Source: a virus
Virus record (IMG/VR): IMGVR_UViG_3300046656_000575
Location: 1 to 28,099 of that record
DNA length: 28,099 nt
Direction: 5' to 3' (one strand)
Of the stretch, positions 1,821 through 8,184 are shown piece after piece. How positions within the stretch are numbered: position 1 is the first letter of the stretch; each line of letters opens with the position of its first letter. Under the pieces are notes generated by a model, which saw nothing but the letters and a program-made list of their open reading frames with translations, searched no databases and was not told the origin of the DNA. The translations under genes and the position numbers were made by a program.

Positions 1821-2360
1821 TCACGGGTTCGCTTCCTGGGCCTGATTCACCGCGTCGACGCGCCGAGCCTCGAGCGGGTTCGCCTTGATCCACTTCCGAT
1901 ATTCGTTCTCGCCGCTCCGGTACTTCAGCTTCTCACCCCAGAAGGCGGCGCACCGACGCACCCCCCTCGGGCATTCCATGCAGAACCAGACCACCGTCTC
2001 CCGCCGGCCGGTCAGCGGCGAGACGCATCCCGGGTTGTCCTCGGTCCCCTTGAACTCGCCGAAGGTCAGGCCGACATCGCGGCAGTGCCGGCAGAAGATC
2101 CGCGCCCGCGGCGGGGCGACGGCGTCGGACAGCTCGGCCGGGTCGATCAGGTTGAGCGTCCGGGCGGCGAACCGGCGCAGCATGGGGCTGAGCTCCTTCC
2201 ACTCCGGTCCGCCGAAGGCCTCGCTCTCCGGGTCGCGCGCCATCGAATCCCAGAGAACTGCGGCCCGACGCAGGAGCTCCACGTCGACCCCGGCCGGGTC
2301 CAGCACCTGGGCGATCGGCAGGAGCCCGGGCTGTTCGCGAAGCTCGGTCTCCCCCCTCAC
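1821..2360 (-). CDS. hypothetical early protein with Cys-pair zinc motifs
   Basis: 179 aa. ATG at 2360 overlaps the stop of the replication gene by 4 bases (ATGA). Its own stop lies 11 bases before the ParB-like start and directly abuts that gene's Shine-Dalgarno site, so translation is probably coupled. The central part has a CRHC pair and the C-terminal half has FCMEC followed by another Cys (RRCAAFW), so it may bind zinc. The last 40 residues are Lys/Arg-rich (LKYRSGENEYRKWIK). I recognise no family. Its place between a replication initiator and a ParB-like gene suggests a DNA-linked role, but this is inference from position only. Confidence 0.75.
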   Translation of the reverse strand: MRGETELREQPGLLPIAQVLDPAGVDVELLRRAAVLWDSMARDPESEAFGGPEWKELSPMLRRFAARTLNLIDPAELSDAVAPPRARIFCRHCRDVGLTFGEFKGTEDNPGCVSPLTGRRETVVWFCMECPRGVRRCAAFWGEKLKYRSGENEYRKWIKANPLEARRVDAVNQAQEANP

Positions 2361-3358
2361 GGGCGGACCCCGGTCTCGCGGTTGATATCCCGCATCCGCC
2401 GGCGGGCGCGGTCGGCATCGGTCTCGGGGCGCTTCTCAGCGTTCACCAGGCGGGCGAGGTTCGCGGGCTCGAAGATGATCTGGGGCGCCATGTACTGCCA
2501 GCCCCTCGGGTCGGAGCCGTCCACCGCCCGGGCGTGCTGGTCGTCGATGATCCGCTTGCAGACTTCGGCGTCGTGCTCGAGGTGGGCCCGGTGGAGCCGC
2601 TCGGAGATCTTCCCAGCCAGCGGGAAGGGTCGCCCCGTCCGCTCGGCGAAGTGCGCGAGGATGTCCAGACAGGTCGGACAGCTTCCGTCTCGCCGGCGCG
2701 CCTCCAGCGGCTCGTGGTGGATCGGGATGACGACCGAGTCCTTCGGCCTGTCCGGTTCCTTCGGTTCGCGTGGGGGTGGGCCTTCCCCGACTACGCCCAC
2801 GCCTTCGCATACGTCTTCGCCTACGACTACGAATACGGCCGCCGGATGCTCGCCGTCCGCGCGCGGCGTGTCAGCGGCCTGCGCGCGGCCCGCGCGCATC
2901 GCGCGGGCATTCGGCGGGCATTCCGCGGGCAGATGTTCGGACGTGGGATTTGCAGGAGTTACGGTCAATGGTCGCGAGTCACGCCTGGCGGTGCTGTCTT
3001 CGGGCTCCCCGATCGATGCCAGGACGGCCAGCGGCGGCGCCGGATACTTGCTCTTCGCCCTGGCGCGCTGTCCGAAGTTGAAGAGCTGTAGAAGCCGGTC
3101 GTCCCCCGCTTGGTAGAAGGCGAGAAGCCGGACCGCCGCGAGCTCCTCGAGCCATCGCTCGACGTCCTTTTCGGTCACCGGGTCGGCCGACCGCGGCCGC
3201 GGGAAGCAGGCCGCCAGCACCAGATAGGGCTCCGCGCTGAATCGGCCGTAGTCGTCGGCGACCGCCTTCAGGGCATGCCACAAGACCAGAGCGCCCCATC
3301 CAGTCGCGGCGACGCGCCGTGACCGTATCCACCCCTCGCGCGTGATGCGATTCGGCAT
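2357..3358 (-). CDS. phage replication initiator-like protein (conserved C-terminal phage replication domain)
   Basis: 333 aa. ATG at 3358 has a strong GGAGG site in GGGAGGAAGGGG. The N-terminal 110 residues resemble a winged-helix replisome-organiser domain (WHALKAVADDYGRF, then DVERWLEELAAVRLL and LLQLFNFGQRARAKSKYP). Residues about 115-210 are a low-complexity linker rich in Ala, Pro, Gly and Val. The C-terminal 120 residues contain a CPTC pair and end in GWQYMAPQIIFEPANLARLVN, close to the C-terminal signature of phage replication proteins (Phg_2220_C type). Such proteins bind the phage origin and help load the host helicase; no helicase or loader gene is seen in the window. The linker DNA carries iteron-like repeats (see 2790-2935), as lambda O carries its origin inside its own gene. 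Confidence 0.75.
   Translation of the reverse strand: MPNRITREGWIRSRRVAATGWGALVLWHALKAVADDYGRFSAEPYLVLAACFPRPRSADPVTEKDVERWLEELAAVRLLAFYQAGDDRLLQLFNFGQRARAKSKYPAPPLAVLASIGEPEDSTARRDSRPLTVTPANPTSEHLPAECPPNARAMRAGRAQAADTPRADGEHPAAVFVVVGEDVCEGVGVVGEGPPPREPKEPDRPKDSVVIPIHHEPLEARRRDGSCPTCLDILAHFAERTGRPFPLAGKISERLHRAHLEHDAEVCKRIIDDQHARAVDGSDPRGWQYMAPQIIFEPANLARLVNAEKRPETDADRARRRMRDINRETGVRP
2790..2837. repeat. eight degenerate hexamers (mostly NNTACG/NNTTCG) in replication gene
   Basis: Eight consecutive 6-bp units all end in CG: ACTACG, CCCACG, CCTTCG, CATACG, TCTTCG, CCTACG, ACTACG, AATACG. Six bp is two codons, so part of the regularity may come from the Val/Gly/Glu-rich linker it encodes. It is less GC-rich than the surrounding sequence and sits next to the 11-bp repeats at 2892-2935, so it could be the melting region of an origin. 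Confidence 0.6.
2880..2898. repeat. 19-bp perfect palindrome (9-bp arms) beside the iteron-like repeats
   Basis: The arms TGCGCGCGG and CCGCGCGCA surround a single central C. The second arm runs into the first 11-bp repeat unit. It could be an initiator dimer site or a hairpin at an origin. Alternating GC sequence can form such palindromes by chance in GC-rich DNA. Confidence 0.55.
2892..2935. repeat. four tandem 11-bp iteron-like repeats, candidate phage origin
   Basis: Consecutive 11-bp units read GCGCGCATCGC (2892-2902), GCGGGCATTCG (2903-2913), GCGGGCATTCC (2914-2924) and GCGGGCAGATG (2925-2935). The second and third differ at one base, the first is 8/11 like the second, and the fourth keeps the first seven bases. 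The period is not a multiple of three, so an amino-acid repeat does not explain it. It lies in the linker part of the replication-initiator gene, a typical place for phage initiator-binding sites. Confidence 0.6.
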
Positions 3359-5006: not shown

Positions 5007-5345
5007 GGCGTGCACCTTGCCGCGGTATGTGTCGATCGCCGCTTCGATGGTCGGGTGCCGCTCGGACTGCTTGCCGTCGCGGCCAGGGCGCGGCCAGAGC
5101 GTGACTTTCACCGCCCCCGGTCCGCCCTGCGATACCTCGACGCGCACACGCTCGTCGTGCGCCCCGATGACGAGAGCGGTCAGGCGGCTGTCGTCGAAGG
5201 TGCATAGAGAGCCCGGGAAGTTCACCGAGGCGGAATATTCCGACCACGTGATCTTGGGGAGGTGATGCAAGCCGGAGCAGTCGTAGGCGCAGCGGGCGGT
5301 GCGCCCCAGGACACGCTCGATGCGGGCTTTCTCGTCGTGGGTCAC
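4989..5345 (-). CDS. hypothetical early protein (cassette gene)
   Basis: 118 aa, starting at GTG 5345 inside junction-repeat copy 3 and ending REVPA inside copy 2. It begins MTHDEKARIERVLGRTARC, continues with a beta-rich middle (ITWSEYSASVNFPG, ALVIGAHDERVRVEVSQG, AVKVTLWPRPGR) and ends with a helix (HPTIEAAIDTYRGKVHA). The pattern of a strand-rich domain with a final amphipathic helix suggests a small compact fold. No family is recognised. Its C-terminus is dictated by the shared junction DNA, so that end may not be functionally constrained. Confidence 0.7.
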   Translation of the reverse strand: MTHDEKARIERVLGRTARCAYDCSGLHHLPKITWSEYSASVNFPGSLCTFDDSRLTALVIGAHDERVRVEVSQGGPGAVKVTLWPRPGRDGKQSERHPTIEAAIDTYRGKVHAREVPA

Positions 5346-5359
5346 GCCGGCACCTCGCG
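5342..5359. repeat. gene-junction repeat, copy 3
   Basis: Third identical 18-base copy. It ends the DUF5131 gene (REVPA, stop) and starts the gene downstream at an overlapping GTG. Copies 1 and 3 also agree for two further bases on the coding side (CGCGCA). Confidence 0.9.
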
Positions 5360-6538
5360 CACGCGGAGGTCCTCGGGCCACTGGGCCGGGTTGCCGCCCT
5401 TGCGATCGAACAGGCTGAATCCGACCGCCGGCACCGCGCAGACTCGCGTCGGCGGGCGCTGCCTGGCGGGCTCGCCGATCAGCGGTGGGACGTAGCCGCG
5501 GCCGTCCTCGAGCAGCCAGTGGTTGACGCGGAACCCGGCGTCGTCCCCCAGGACCCAGCGCCCGACCTGCTTCACGAAGCAGGGCACCGAGGCCGCCTTG
5601 CACTGGCCGACGATGGAGCGAATCCAACCGATGTCGCAGGGCCGCGCGCCTGGGCCGGACTCGCCGCCGGCGATCACCCAGTCGAGCCGGTTCAGCATGT
5701 CGTCCGGGCCGGCGACGTGCCCCGTCAGGCTGTTCCACCACACGCCCGGACCGAATGGTGGCTTCGGCTCCACCATCGTCAGACGTGTCAGGTCGATCGG
5801 CCCGAGCAGCGGCTCCGCGCTGATGAACCGGTGCGCCGCCGGCGTCTGCAGCAGGAGCGGGATGCGCTCGTCGGCCGTCGCCTGGTCCTCGACGCTGACG
5901 CCGATCCACACGTTCGGGAGAGGAGGCTTCGGACTCGCACGGTAGGCCGTCTTATCTCCGAGCACGGCATGTCGATACTTCACCGACAGGTGGTCGATCG
6001 AGGTGAGGTTGTAGGCTCCGGCTCGATGTTCACCACCGTCGGCGGAACGGTTCGCGCAGGCGATCAGTCTTTCGAACGTGAGCGCCGAGGCGTATGCGAG
6101 CATCCGCGCCGGACGCTTGGTCAGCACCAGGAAGGTGTGCCGCTGCGCCAGCTTCATCACTGCGAACACGCGGTCGATAACCTCGTCCGATAGCGACTCG
6201 TGGAACAGGTCGGACATGGAGTTGACGAAGATGCGGAGCGGCTTCCGGCGCCGAAGCGGCCAGTCGAGCGCCTCCGGCACCAGCGCCACCTTGCCGGTCC
6301 AGCGCGGGCCTGCCGGCGTCATCTCGGCGAATCCACCGAACGGCCCCGCGGCTTCGTGCGTGACGTACTCGACCGAGCCGCCGACCGGGAGCACCTGTCT
6401 GTGCGTCACTCTCCGGACGGCGAAGCGGGCCGCATGTCGCTCCGCGTAGCAGTTCCGGCACCCCTCGGAGACACGCGAGCAGCCCCGTACCGGGTTCCAG
6501 GTCGCGTCGCACCACTCGATCTTGCTGAGGCCGCTCAT
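5342..6538 (-). CDS. phage Gp37/Gp68-family protein (DUF5131)
   Basis: 398 aa from ATG at 6538. The N-terminus is diagnostic: KIEWCDATWNPVRGC, then SEGCRNCYAERHAARF, a Cys cluster (CX7CX2C) that resembles a radical-SAM-like metal-cluster site. Later family motifs follow: NSMSDLFHE, FLVLTKRPARM, NVWIGVSVEDQATADERI, FISAEPLLGPIDL, WVIAGGESGPGARPC and CFVKQVGRW. The family is common in phages and mobile elements, and its biochemical role is not established. This copy has an extra segment near residues 155-210 (an Ala/Asn-rich insert before VWIGVSVED) compared with the compact form I recall. It heads the early operon here; its 3' end lies in junction-repeat copy 3. Confidence 0.9.
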   Translation of the reverse strand: MSGLSKIEWCDATWNPVRGCSRVSEGCRNCYAERHAARFAVRRVTHRQVLPVGGSVEYVTHEAAGPFGGFAEMTPAGPRWTGKVALVPEALDWPLRRRKPLRIFVNSMSDLFHESLSDEVIDRVFAVMKLAQRHTFLVLTKRPARMLAYASALTFERLIACANRSADGGEHRAGAYNLTSIDHLSVKYRHAVLGDKTAYRASPKPPLPNVWIGVSVEDQATADERIPLLLQTPAAHRFISAEPLLGPIDLTRLTMVEPKPPFGPGVWWNSLTGHVAGPDDMLNRLDWVIAGGESGPGARPCDIGWIRSIVGQCKAASVPCFVKQVGRWVLGDDAGFRVNHWLLEDGRGYVPPLIGEPARQRPPTRVCAVPAVGFSLFDRKGGNPAQWPEDLRVREVPA

Positions 6539-7155
6539 CGCCGTGCCCCGTCCGGTATGCCGAGGCCGGCGGTGCAGCTCTGCCGCCGGCCTCGGTTTTC
6601 CGGGAGTACGGCGAGCCTGCTTTCGCCCTCCGTGGGCCTCGCCGAACCAGCGCCGAAGGCGGCCCGGGCCGCCCCGACTGACACAACCCGCCAGGCCTTG
6701 CGGAACTCGATGCTGCGGGGATCGCCGTGCCGTGCCGCTCGCGATAGGTGGGGGTCGCCCATGGGGACCGGGCGCGCCGATCTGGAGGTGGCGGGCTGGA
6801 GCTGTACAGGGAAGGCGGCGGCCGGACGACCGGCGGCCCGCAGAAGGCCGCGAAGCCCGGCACGCGCCGGCAGCCGGCCGCCGCCACCCTGGTTACCTGC
6901 TCGGCCTTCGGAGGCCGAATCCGAAGGTCGCAAGTTCGAATCTTGCTGGGCGCACCACCCGGGCCGGGCCACGATCCGGCGGCACATCTTGCAGCCGGGC
7001 GTCGCGGTCCGGAAGTCGGTGGGCTTGCCGCAGCCGGCACAGCGGAAGGGCGAAAGCACGAAGGGCCGCCCCGGTGCGTCGGTGAAGACGCGGGCGGGCT
7101 CTTGCGGAGATCGCCCCGAGGCGGCTTTTCCTGATTTCGTTTCGGGAAGCATCAT
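6535..7155 (-). CDS. possible zinc-ribbon protein reading across the att core (uncertain)
   Basis: About 206 codons from ATG at 7155; a GTG at 7161 is better spaced from a GGAG. The stop overlaps the DUF5131 start by four bases (ATGA). The first 65 codons look protein-like and contain CAGCGKP and CKMCRR, a four-Cys zinc-ribbon pattern. The following residues (AQQDSNLRPSDS) are the antisense reading of the tRNA fragment, a peptide widely seen in spurious translations of tRNA genes. Beyond that the sequence is low-complexity and crosses two perfect inverted repeats, which argues against coding there. If real, integration at the att core would replace its C-terminal part. I consider the N-terminal third plausible and the full length doubtful. 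Confidence 0.35.
   Translation of the reverse strand: MMLPETKSGKAASGRSPQEPARVFTDAPGRPFVLSPFRCAGCGKPTDFRTATPGCKMCRRIVARPGWCAQQDSNLRPSDSASEGRAGNQGGGGRLPARAGLRGLLRAAGRPAAAFPVQLQPATSRSARPVPMGDPHLSRAARHGDPRSIEFRKAWRVVSVGAARAAFGAGSARPTEGESRLAVLPENRGRRQSCTAGLGIPDGARR
6560..6599 (+). terminator. 13-bp perfect hairpin followed by TTTT
   Basis: The arms CCGAGGCCGGCGG (6560-6572) and CCGCCGGCCTCGG (6583-6595) flank a 10-base loop and are followed by TTTT at 6596-6599. This is a Rho-independent-type terminator for plus-strand transcription. It lies 21 bases upstream of the DUF5131 start, where it would stop plus-strand transcripts from running antisense into the rest of the region. On the minus strand it would be a leader hairpin of the early operon. 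Confidence 0.6.
6658..6673. promoter_or_regulatory. 16-bp perfect palindrome, possible operator
   Basis: GGCGGCCCGGGCCGCC is a perfect dyad about 120 bases upstream of the DUF5131 start, in the control region between integrase and early operon. It could be a repressor or integration-factor site. GC-rich composition makes chance palindromes more likely. Confidence 0.3.
6908..6957 (+). other. attP: 3' half of a tRNA-Arg-like gene: probable phage attachment site (attP core)
   Basis: The segment folds as the 3' half of a tRNA. The anticodon stem is TCGGA/TCCGA (6908-6912 with 6920-6924) with a 7-base loop whose middle reads CCG (Arg), followed by an AGGTC variable loop, the T arm GCAAG-TTCGAAT-CTTGC (6930-6946), the acceptor strand TGGGCGC, A73 and an encoded CCA at 6955-6957. 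No D arm or 5' acceptor strand lies upstream, and the usual U33 is G, so identity with the host tRNA probably starts in the anticodon loop near 6915. Tyrosine integrases often use such tRNA 3' ends; the integrase gene is 360 bases away. Phage-like genes on both sides favour attP. Confidence 0.75.
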
Positions 7156-7320: not shown

Positions 7321-8184
7321 TCAGCGAGTACCGGGCTCCCTCCCCGGCGGCCCGATGAACCGCACCGAGGCGTTGATGTGCTCCGGCGACAGGTGCGAGT
7401 AGCGCTCCGTCGTCTTGATCGACCGGTGCCCCATCAGCTTCTGCAACACCCGCAGGCTCCCCCCGTTCATCACGTACCAGCTCCCGAAGGTGTGCCGCAG
7501 GGTGTGGAAGGTAACGTCGGACCCGAGCCCGGCGAGCTGACGGGCGCGCTCGAAGGACGACCGGATGTCATGCATCGCGGCGCCGCGCCAGGTGAAGACC
7601 GGGTCGCCAAGCCCGGCGCGCGGCAGGCCGGCCAGGCACTGATGGAGCGCCTCGCTCATGGGGATGTGCCGCCGGCGCATCTTCCCCTTCGTCGTCTTCC
7701 GGGCGAAGGTGATGACGCGCGCCAGGACGTCGACGTGTTCCCCCCGGAGCCCCAGCACCTCGGAGAGCCGGCCCCCGGTGTGCAGCGCCGCGGTGATCAC
7801 CGGCCGCGCATGCGGCAGCGCCGCGAGCTGCAGGCGCGCCGCCTCCTCGGGGGTCAGGTAGCGATCGCGGCCGTCGCCCTCCTTGAACCTCTTCACCGCC
7901 AGCGCCGGGTTCGGCCCCGCTCGATAGCCGCGGCCGGTGCACCACTCGAGGAAGACGCTCAGCGCGGAGGCCTGGCGGTTGAGGGTCGGGCGGGCGATGC
8001 CCTCCGCCAGCCGGGCGCGGAAGAAGCGCTCGATCTCGAGGACGGTGATCTGGTCGATTGGACGATCGCCGAAGTACCGCTCGAGGATGCGCACCTGGGA
8101 CGGCATGGTGCGCTGGTCCTCAGAGTAGAGCTGGTAGTGCAGCAGGAACTCCCCGGCGACCTCCTTGAAGGCCACGCCCGGCAC
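7321..8184 (-). CDS. int: tyrosine recombinase / phage integrase
   Basis: 287 aa from GTG at 8184; no ATG is available between the upstream in-frame stop and residue 27. The N-terminal 100 residues are a SAM-like core-binding domain (LERYFGDRPIDQITVLEIERFF, split here as two helices, then NRQASALSVFLEWC). The catalytic domain contains all expected residues: R139 in HTGGRLSEVLGL, a Lys in the TTKGK turn (166-168), H227 and R230 in FHTLRHTFGSW, H253 in LMGHRS and the nucleophile Y262 in TERYSHL. It would join attP in the tRNA-Arg-like fragment at 6908-6957 to the host tRNA gene. The protein is short and seems to lack a separate arm-binding domain. No excisionase or phage repressor is recognised nearby. 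Confidence 0.93.
   Translation of the reverse strand: MPGVAFKEVAGEFLLHYQLYSEDQRTMPSQVRILERYFGDRPIDQITVLEIERFFRARLAEGIARPTLNRQASALSVFLEWCTGRGYRAGPNPALAVKRFKEGDGRDRYLTPEEAARLQLAALPHARPVITAALHTGGRLSEVLGLRGEHVDVLARVITFARKTTKGKMRRRHIPMSEALHQCLAGLPRAGLGDPVFTWRGAAMHDIRSSFERARQLAGLGSDVTFHTLRHTFGSWYVMNGGSLRVLQKLMGHRSIKTTERYSHLSPEHINASVRFIGPPGREPGTR

Follow-up and report, generated by a model that had tools for sequence, protein, structure and literature searches.

Does a temperate phage from soil carry its replication origin inside the gene for its own initiator protein? The question is raised by the linear IMG/VR record IMGVR_UViG_3300046656_000575, the whole 28,099 bp of which we analysed and call the window, and by its replication-initiation gene (2357-3358, minus strand; gene nucleotide k lies at window position 3359-k), which encodes a protein of 333 amino acids (aa). 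A sequence-only reading had noticed short tandem repeats in the linker-coding part of this gene and had proposed them as a candidate phage origin. Our analysis supports the proposal: judged from sequence, the phage would have its replication origin in this segment, within the stretch of its own initiator gene that codes for the linker, and we put the probability of this at about 0.78. It contains an array of 11-bp units and an array of 6-bp units. The argument is carried by two observations, namely that the closest relative has a stronger array, colinear with that of the window, and that the two-array layout recurs in most remote relatives. Both arrays, the selection at the DNA level and the fixed order and place across the family were computed directly.

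The first array has four clear 11-bp units, at 2921-2931, 2910-2920, 2899-2909 and 2888-2898 (together 2888-2931, minus strand), with the consensus TGNCCGCSSAA on the coding strand; read from 2931 to 2888 they are TGCCCGCGGAA / TGCCCGCCGAA / TGCCCGCGCGA / TGCGCGCGGGC, and we propose them as initiator-binding iterons. The presence of four tandem units had been seen correctly, but the coordinates given for them, 2892-2935, have to be shifted by 4 bp to reach the best register, in which the fourth unit is diverged. The register is continued at 2838-2887 (minus strand) in a degenerate, GC-rich form. It had been argued that a period of 11 bp cannot come from an amino-acid repeat, and this holds: consecutive units stand in reading frames 1, 0 and 2, so that no repeat in the protein can generate the array. 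The periodicity was compared with a null model in which codons are permuted among synonymous positions inside the gene, i.e. with protein and codon usage kept. It was equalled by 0.6% of the shuffles (30-nt window, six lags) or 1.5% (24-nt window, lags 10/11), and the score of Tandem Repeats Finder (TRF) by 2.5%. A scan of the window for isolated extra 11-bp units found none that stand out.

The second array (2790-2837, minus strand), our candidate for a strand-opening or helicase-loading element, consists of exactly eight hexamers, as had been claimed; their sequences on the coding strand are GTATTC GTAGTC GTAGGC GAAGAC GTATGC GAAGGC GTGGGC GTAGTC. Seven of the eight fit G[AT]ANNC, the maximum in 1000 synonymous-codon shuffles being six. 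Codon choice within the array is unusual as well: the valine codon GTA is used 5 times out of 8, as compared to 10 out of 525 (1.9%) elsewhere in the genes of the window (P 1.3e-7), and all three glutamate codons are GAA (P 0.003). The AT content of the block is 44%, against 30% for the gene; the AT-richest 48-nt stretch of the gene (46%) lies just upstream of the iterons.

Residues 1-130 of the protein match PHROG 2149, 5810 and 1408, annotated 'replication initiation protein' (E 5.6e-12, 1.9e-10 and 3e-8), and a Pfam search with the 333-aa sequence returned no family at E 0.01, neither Phage_rep_O nor RepA_N. According to an AlphaFold2 model built on a 30-sequence alignment, a winged-helix-like domain at the N-terminus (aa 1-117; 3008-3358, minus strand) is followed by a linker (aa 118-229; 2672-3007, minus strand) and by a helical C-terminal domain (aa 230-329; 2372-2671, minus strand), which is conserved in the closest relative and there only gives a weak match to Pfam Phg_2220_C. 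Most blocks of the N-domain have a predicted local distance difference test (pLDDT) score of 80-98, the first block about 56, and the order of helices and strands is that of a winged helix. Its fold matches are winged-helix proteins; among the matches listed, 4pql (Z 7.9), 4pt7 (Z 7.4) and 5kbj (Z 7.0), which we take to be N-domain structures of pSK41-type Rep proteins, stand beside many others of like score. Foldseek gave no confident structural match (all E above 0.08). The linker is mostly predicted disordered, with pLDDT below 50 at aa 123-131, 133-193, 195-197 and 201-216. In gene coordinates, nt 428 is the start of the first clear 11-bp unit and nt 522 that of the first hexamer; both arrays therefore fall entirely within the linker-coding region, as the sequence-only reading had it; in the model, the entire origin-like segment thus sits in a predicted disordered stretch between two folded domains.

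Relatives of the initiator were hard to reach. Single-sequence scans of viral and genome contigs with the window initiator found no relative, neither blastn against annotated phages nor tblastn against plasmids gave a match, and tblastn against phages found only five weak matches, all to the N-domain. The closest full-length relative, and the only close one, is IMGVR_UViG_3300046791_000574 (37,680 bp; hereafter G002), which was reached through a search with the capsid gene and is also the only match of a DNA pattern search with the doubled unit. Its ends (L034 at the start, L035 at the end) carry a 127-bp direct terminal repeat, and the capsid gene spans them; G002 is therefore complete, a genome of about 37.55 kb that is read as a circle. 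The Rep of G002 is 73% identical in amino acids to the window initiator, and its gene has six clear 11-bp units colinear with those of the window, TGCCCGCCGAA TGCCCGCCCAA TGACCGCCGAA TGTCCGCGCCA TGCCCGCCCAA TGACCGCGGCC, followed by GC-rich units. Units 5-6, clear in G002, have their degenerate counterpart in the window at 2838-2887. In the window as in G002, the first hexamer comes 94 nt after the first 11-bp unit, and the idea of a 22-bp insertion in G002 relative to the window was rejected, because the blocks are colinear and of 94 nt each. Over the ten clear units of the two phages, positions T1, G2, C5, G6 and C7 are invariant. Synonymous shuffles equalled the periodicity of G002 in 1.4% (30-nt window, six lags) and 1.0% (24-nt window, lags 10/11) of the cases, and its TRF score in 0/1000; 6 of its 8 hexamers fit G[AT]ANNC, which was never equalled in 1000 shuffles.

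With G002 in hand, two-sequence and then 30-sequence alignments opened up a family. Its loci, 40 viral and 17 genomic, some of them fragments, were collected by the conserved N-domain motif ADDYGRF and come from Nitrospira, Clostridia, Verrucomicrobia (Verrucomicrobiales), Lentisphaeria, Alicyclobacillaceae, Magnetococcales and others. By TRF, most family loci have an array of 10- or 11-bp units directly followed by one of about 6 bp, the unit sequences being different: CAACTCGCCG then GAAACC, GTCAAATGACC then AGACGG, or AGCAGATGAT then GAATCC, for example. Family statistics were based on one gene from each of 36 independent clusters (60% identity), with p<0.05 as the threshold for a lag signal. 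A periodicity at lag 10/11 above the synonymous null was present in 21 of the 36 clusters (Fisher 3e-22). Among 179 other genes of these contigs, taken as controls and not matched for disordered linkers, only 2 showed it (odds ratio 124, p 1.8e-17). No signal was seen at lags 8, 13, 16 and 17, lag 14 was not significant (Fisher 0.099), and the weak excess at lag 7 (Fisher 0.014) is consistent with a few members having 7-bp units. The lag-10/11 peak lies within the linker in 33 of 36 clusters (16.7 expected), and the best lag-6 window follows it by at most 120 nt in 27 of 36 (10.3 expected). In the Clostridial branch the arrays come 280-375 nt further on, after an apparent HNH nuclease domain inserted between N-domain and linker (L063, L068, L072/L090, L074 and L081-L086; the Pfam match is in L068, with similar sequence in cluster mates). 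Among these, L090 belongs to a prophage of a cultured strain, Anaerotruncus colihominis DSM 17241.

The hexamers of the family are not tied to a reading frame. GAATCC is translated as repeated ES in L046 but as repeated NP in L067, and the frame may even switch inside a single gene: AGTCGG is read as SR then ES in L044, CGGAGT as ES then GV in L051, and CGGAGA as ET then GD in L069. Identical hexamers in different frames, together with the rare GTA codons in the hexamers of the window, lead us to conclude that, as far as sequence comparison can tell, the arrays are under selection at the DNA level. This frame switching is a stronger argument for hexamers at the DNA level than plain autocorrelation at lag 6, which reaches significance for some members only, because the synonymous null keeps the protein repeat. 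The TRF-based hexamer calls are partly selected on repeat score, and the units of the second array are of 5 or 7 bp in L055/L056 and L070. On the coding strand, 27 of 33 second arrays are purine-rich. The sequence-only reading had suggested looking for repeats with a tandem-repeat finder and for their retention at the DNA level beyond codon needs, and both were found, in the window, in G002 and over most of the family; of homologues with the same protein and no repeats, which it had named as contrary evidence, the opposite was seen.

Several observations weigh against an origin at this place. Taken alone, the 11-bp evidence from the GC-rich gene of the window is modest (p 0.006-0.025), and about 40% of the clusters have no significant 10/11-bp signal, some of them having other spacings. 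The second arrays are AT-richer than the mean of their gene in only 19 of 33 cases, unlike the opening region of lambda; no fixed AT-rich flank was seen beside the arrays across the family either, and an AT-rich opening element is not supported as a family rule. The fold similarity to RepA_N-type initiators stays below Z 8, and the winged helix is a widespread fold. Finally, the cumulative GC skew, proposed earlier as a check, shows no turn at the arrays in either the window fragment or G002, and is uninformative as a test for an origin.

What else could the repeats be? Iterons of known replicons also serve in control, and the arrays might be an operator or a titration site, bound by the initiator to regulate its own gene or to control copy number, with the true origin elsewhere. 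Their location inside the gene of the presumed binder would suit such a role, but their placement in the middle of the gene in nearly all relatives, and not at a promoter, resembles origins more, as does the constant second array, and a titration system is not suggested by a window in which isolated extra units do not stand out; we regard this possibility as unlikely. Still less likely is a role for the hexamers at the protein level only, as a V-x/E-x dipeptide repeat from which the linker would benefit. A period of six is that of two codons, the array of the window is in frame, and by simple autocorrelation many members exceed their synonymous shuffles at lag 6 only weakly or not at all; yet one and the same hexamer changes frame from gene to gene and even inside a gene, the window hexamers use rare GTA and GAA codons, and a G[AT]ANNC run such as those of the window and G002 was never equalled in 1000 synonymous shuffles of either gene.

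Slippage and GC-rich composition might also produce functionless repeats in a low-complexity linker, and the predicted disorder, the occurrence of palindromes from composition alone (see below) and the modest signal of the window gene would agree with this. It is nevertheless strongly disfavoured by the excess of initiators over control genes (which, it should be kept in mind, are unmatched for disordered linkers), by the specific periods and order found across the family, by hexamers independent of reading frame, and by the enrichment in these of a valine codon scarce elsewhere. The least probable explanation is that the repeats are a parS, the centromere-like site of the ParB protein encoded two genes downstream (145-1893): although a ParB-domain gene adjoins the region in the window, in G002 and in a further record, G007, a ParB_N match is present in only 4 of 30 initiator-family records (some of which are fragments), whereas the arrays are family-wide, and G007 retains ParB yet has an unrelated Rep without a comparable array.

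The sequence-only reading had also pointed to a 19-bp palindrome. It exists (2880-2898; arms of 9 bp around a one-base centre) and overlaps the fourth unit, but a part in the origin is not borne out and it is probably incidental: composition alone predicts 0.43 palindromes of this size per window and 0.025 per gene, and the palindrome of G002, of 17 bp, does not lie at the homologous position (gene nt 506-522 there, 461-479 in the window). It was therefore rejected as a conserved element.

If the segment is an origin, how might it work? The N-terminal winged-helix domain would bind the contiguous 11-bp units, each about one helical turn, its monomers stacking along one face of the DNA; by analogy, such binding of one unit per turn is likely. 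The stacked complex may then strain or open the adjoining hexamer array, whose purine-rich strand could be kept single-stranded by the initiator or a helicase-loading factor, while the C-terminal domain would recruit the host replicative helicase or primase. That the hexamers are an opening or loading element is a guess from analogous systems, to which we give a little less than even odds.

Lambda iterons are about 18-19 bp long, and the contiguous 10/11-bp units described here are shorter. Lambdoid origins are alike in that their iterons, also direct repeats, lie centrally in the gene of the initiator and behind the part for its DNA-binding N-domain, and unlike in that the neighbour of the iterons is not a purine-rich 6-bp array; nor does the window initiator have the Phage_rep_O match of the lambda O family. 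In lambdoid phages the origin lies in the middle of gene O, with iterons beside an AT-rich tract, and the number of iterons varies (4 in lambda, 6 in Stx phages; PMC7466680). The RepA_N-type theta plasmid pSK41 has a winged-helix N-domain, central boxes, linker-coding DNA that acts as the origin and a separate C-domain, a layout like the one predicted or proposed for the window; its Rep boxes, central in rep, are bound by the N-domain, and the origin-encoded linker is dispensable (PMC5703833). Unlike RepA_N-type plasmids, the window initiator has no RepA_N match in Pfam, and a 6-bp array is not among the features described for pSK41 in the portion of that source considered here. In RK2, the winged-helix Rep TrfA binds the repeated 13-mers of the DNA unwinding element (DUE) as a single strand, strand-specifically, all copies being needed (PMC4081077). 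This too is a second array adjoining iterons, but the 13-mers are in an AT-rich DUE, whereas the 6-mers considered here lie within the rep gene and show no consistent AT-richness. DnaD, in turn, reads a strand-specific single-stranded element in oriC, and the DnaA-trio/DnaD element likewise consists of short strand-specific motifs used as single-stranded DNA at an opening site (PMC10201434); it is chromosomal and DnaA-dependent, and no sequence link between it and the hexamers was seen. The two-array layout thus has precedents but no description in the open-access literature searched; an earlier description may exist elsewhere.

As to the neighbourhood, the 3′ half of a tRNA gene including CCA (..GGTCGCAAGTTCGAATCTTGCTGGGCGCACCA) at 6903-6959, beside the integrase gene (7321-8184), is conserved in G002 and, on the opposite strand, in G007; it is probably the core of attP. 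In G007 (L033 2351-3640, minus strand), the synteny from ParB to the integrase is as in the window, with a different initiator protein and no comparable array, and the replication module appears to have been exchanged between window-type phages and G007. Between rep and the integrase gene, the window encodes a DUF5131 protein (5342-6538, minus strand; PF07505, E 3.5e-79; PHROG 2045, unknown function).

More doubtful than the origin itself, and put forward tentatively, is a generalization: phages of many bacterial phyla might have in common a type of origin not described before, with a 10/11-bp, one-unit-per-turn initiator array coupled to a purine-rich rather than AT-rich array of 5-7-bp (mostly 6-bp) units, serving as a strand-specific, single-stranded platform for opening and helicase loading. 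The unit sequences would drift between lineages, the period, order and linker position of the arrays remaining the same. Should the arrays be origins, an origin could be read from sequence in a wide range of temperate phages and prophages that experiment has left untouched. The family would then be a natural series in which the DNA-binding domain of the initiator and the sequence of its site have changed together at fixed spacing, and the hexamer array, kept across reading frames, would be a testable candidate for the way in which an origin that is not AT-rich is opened.
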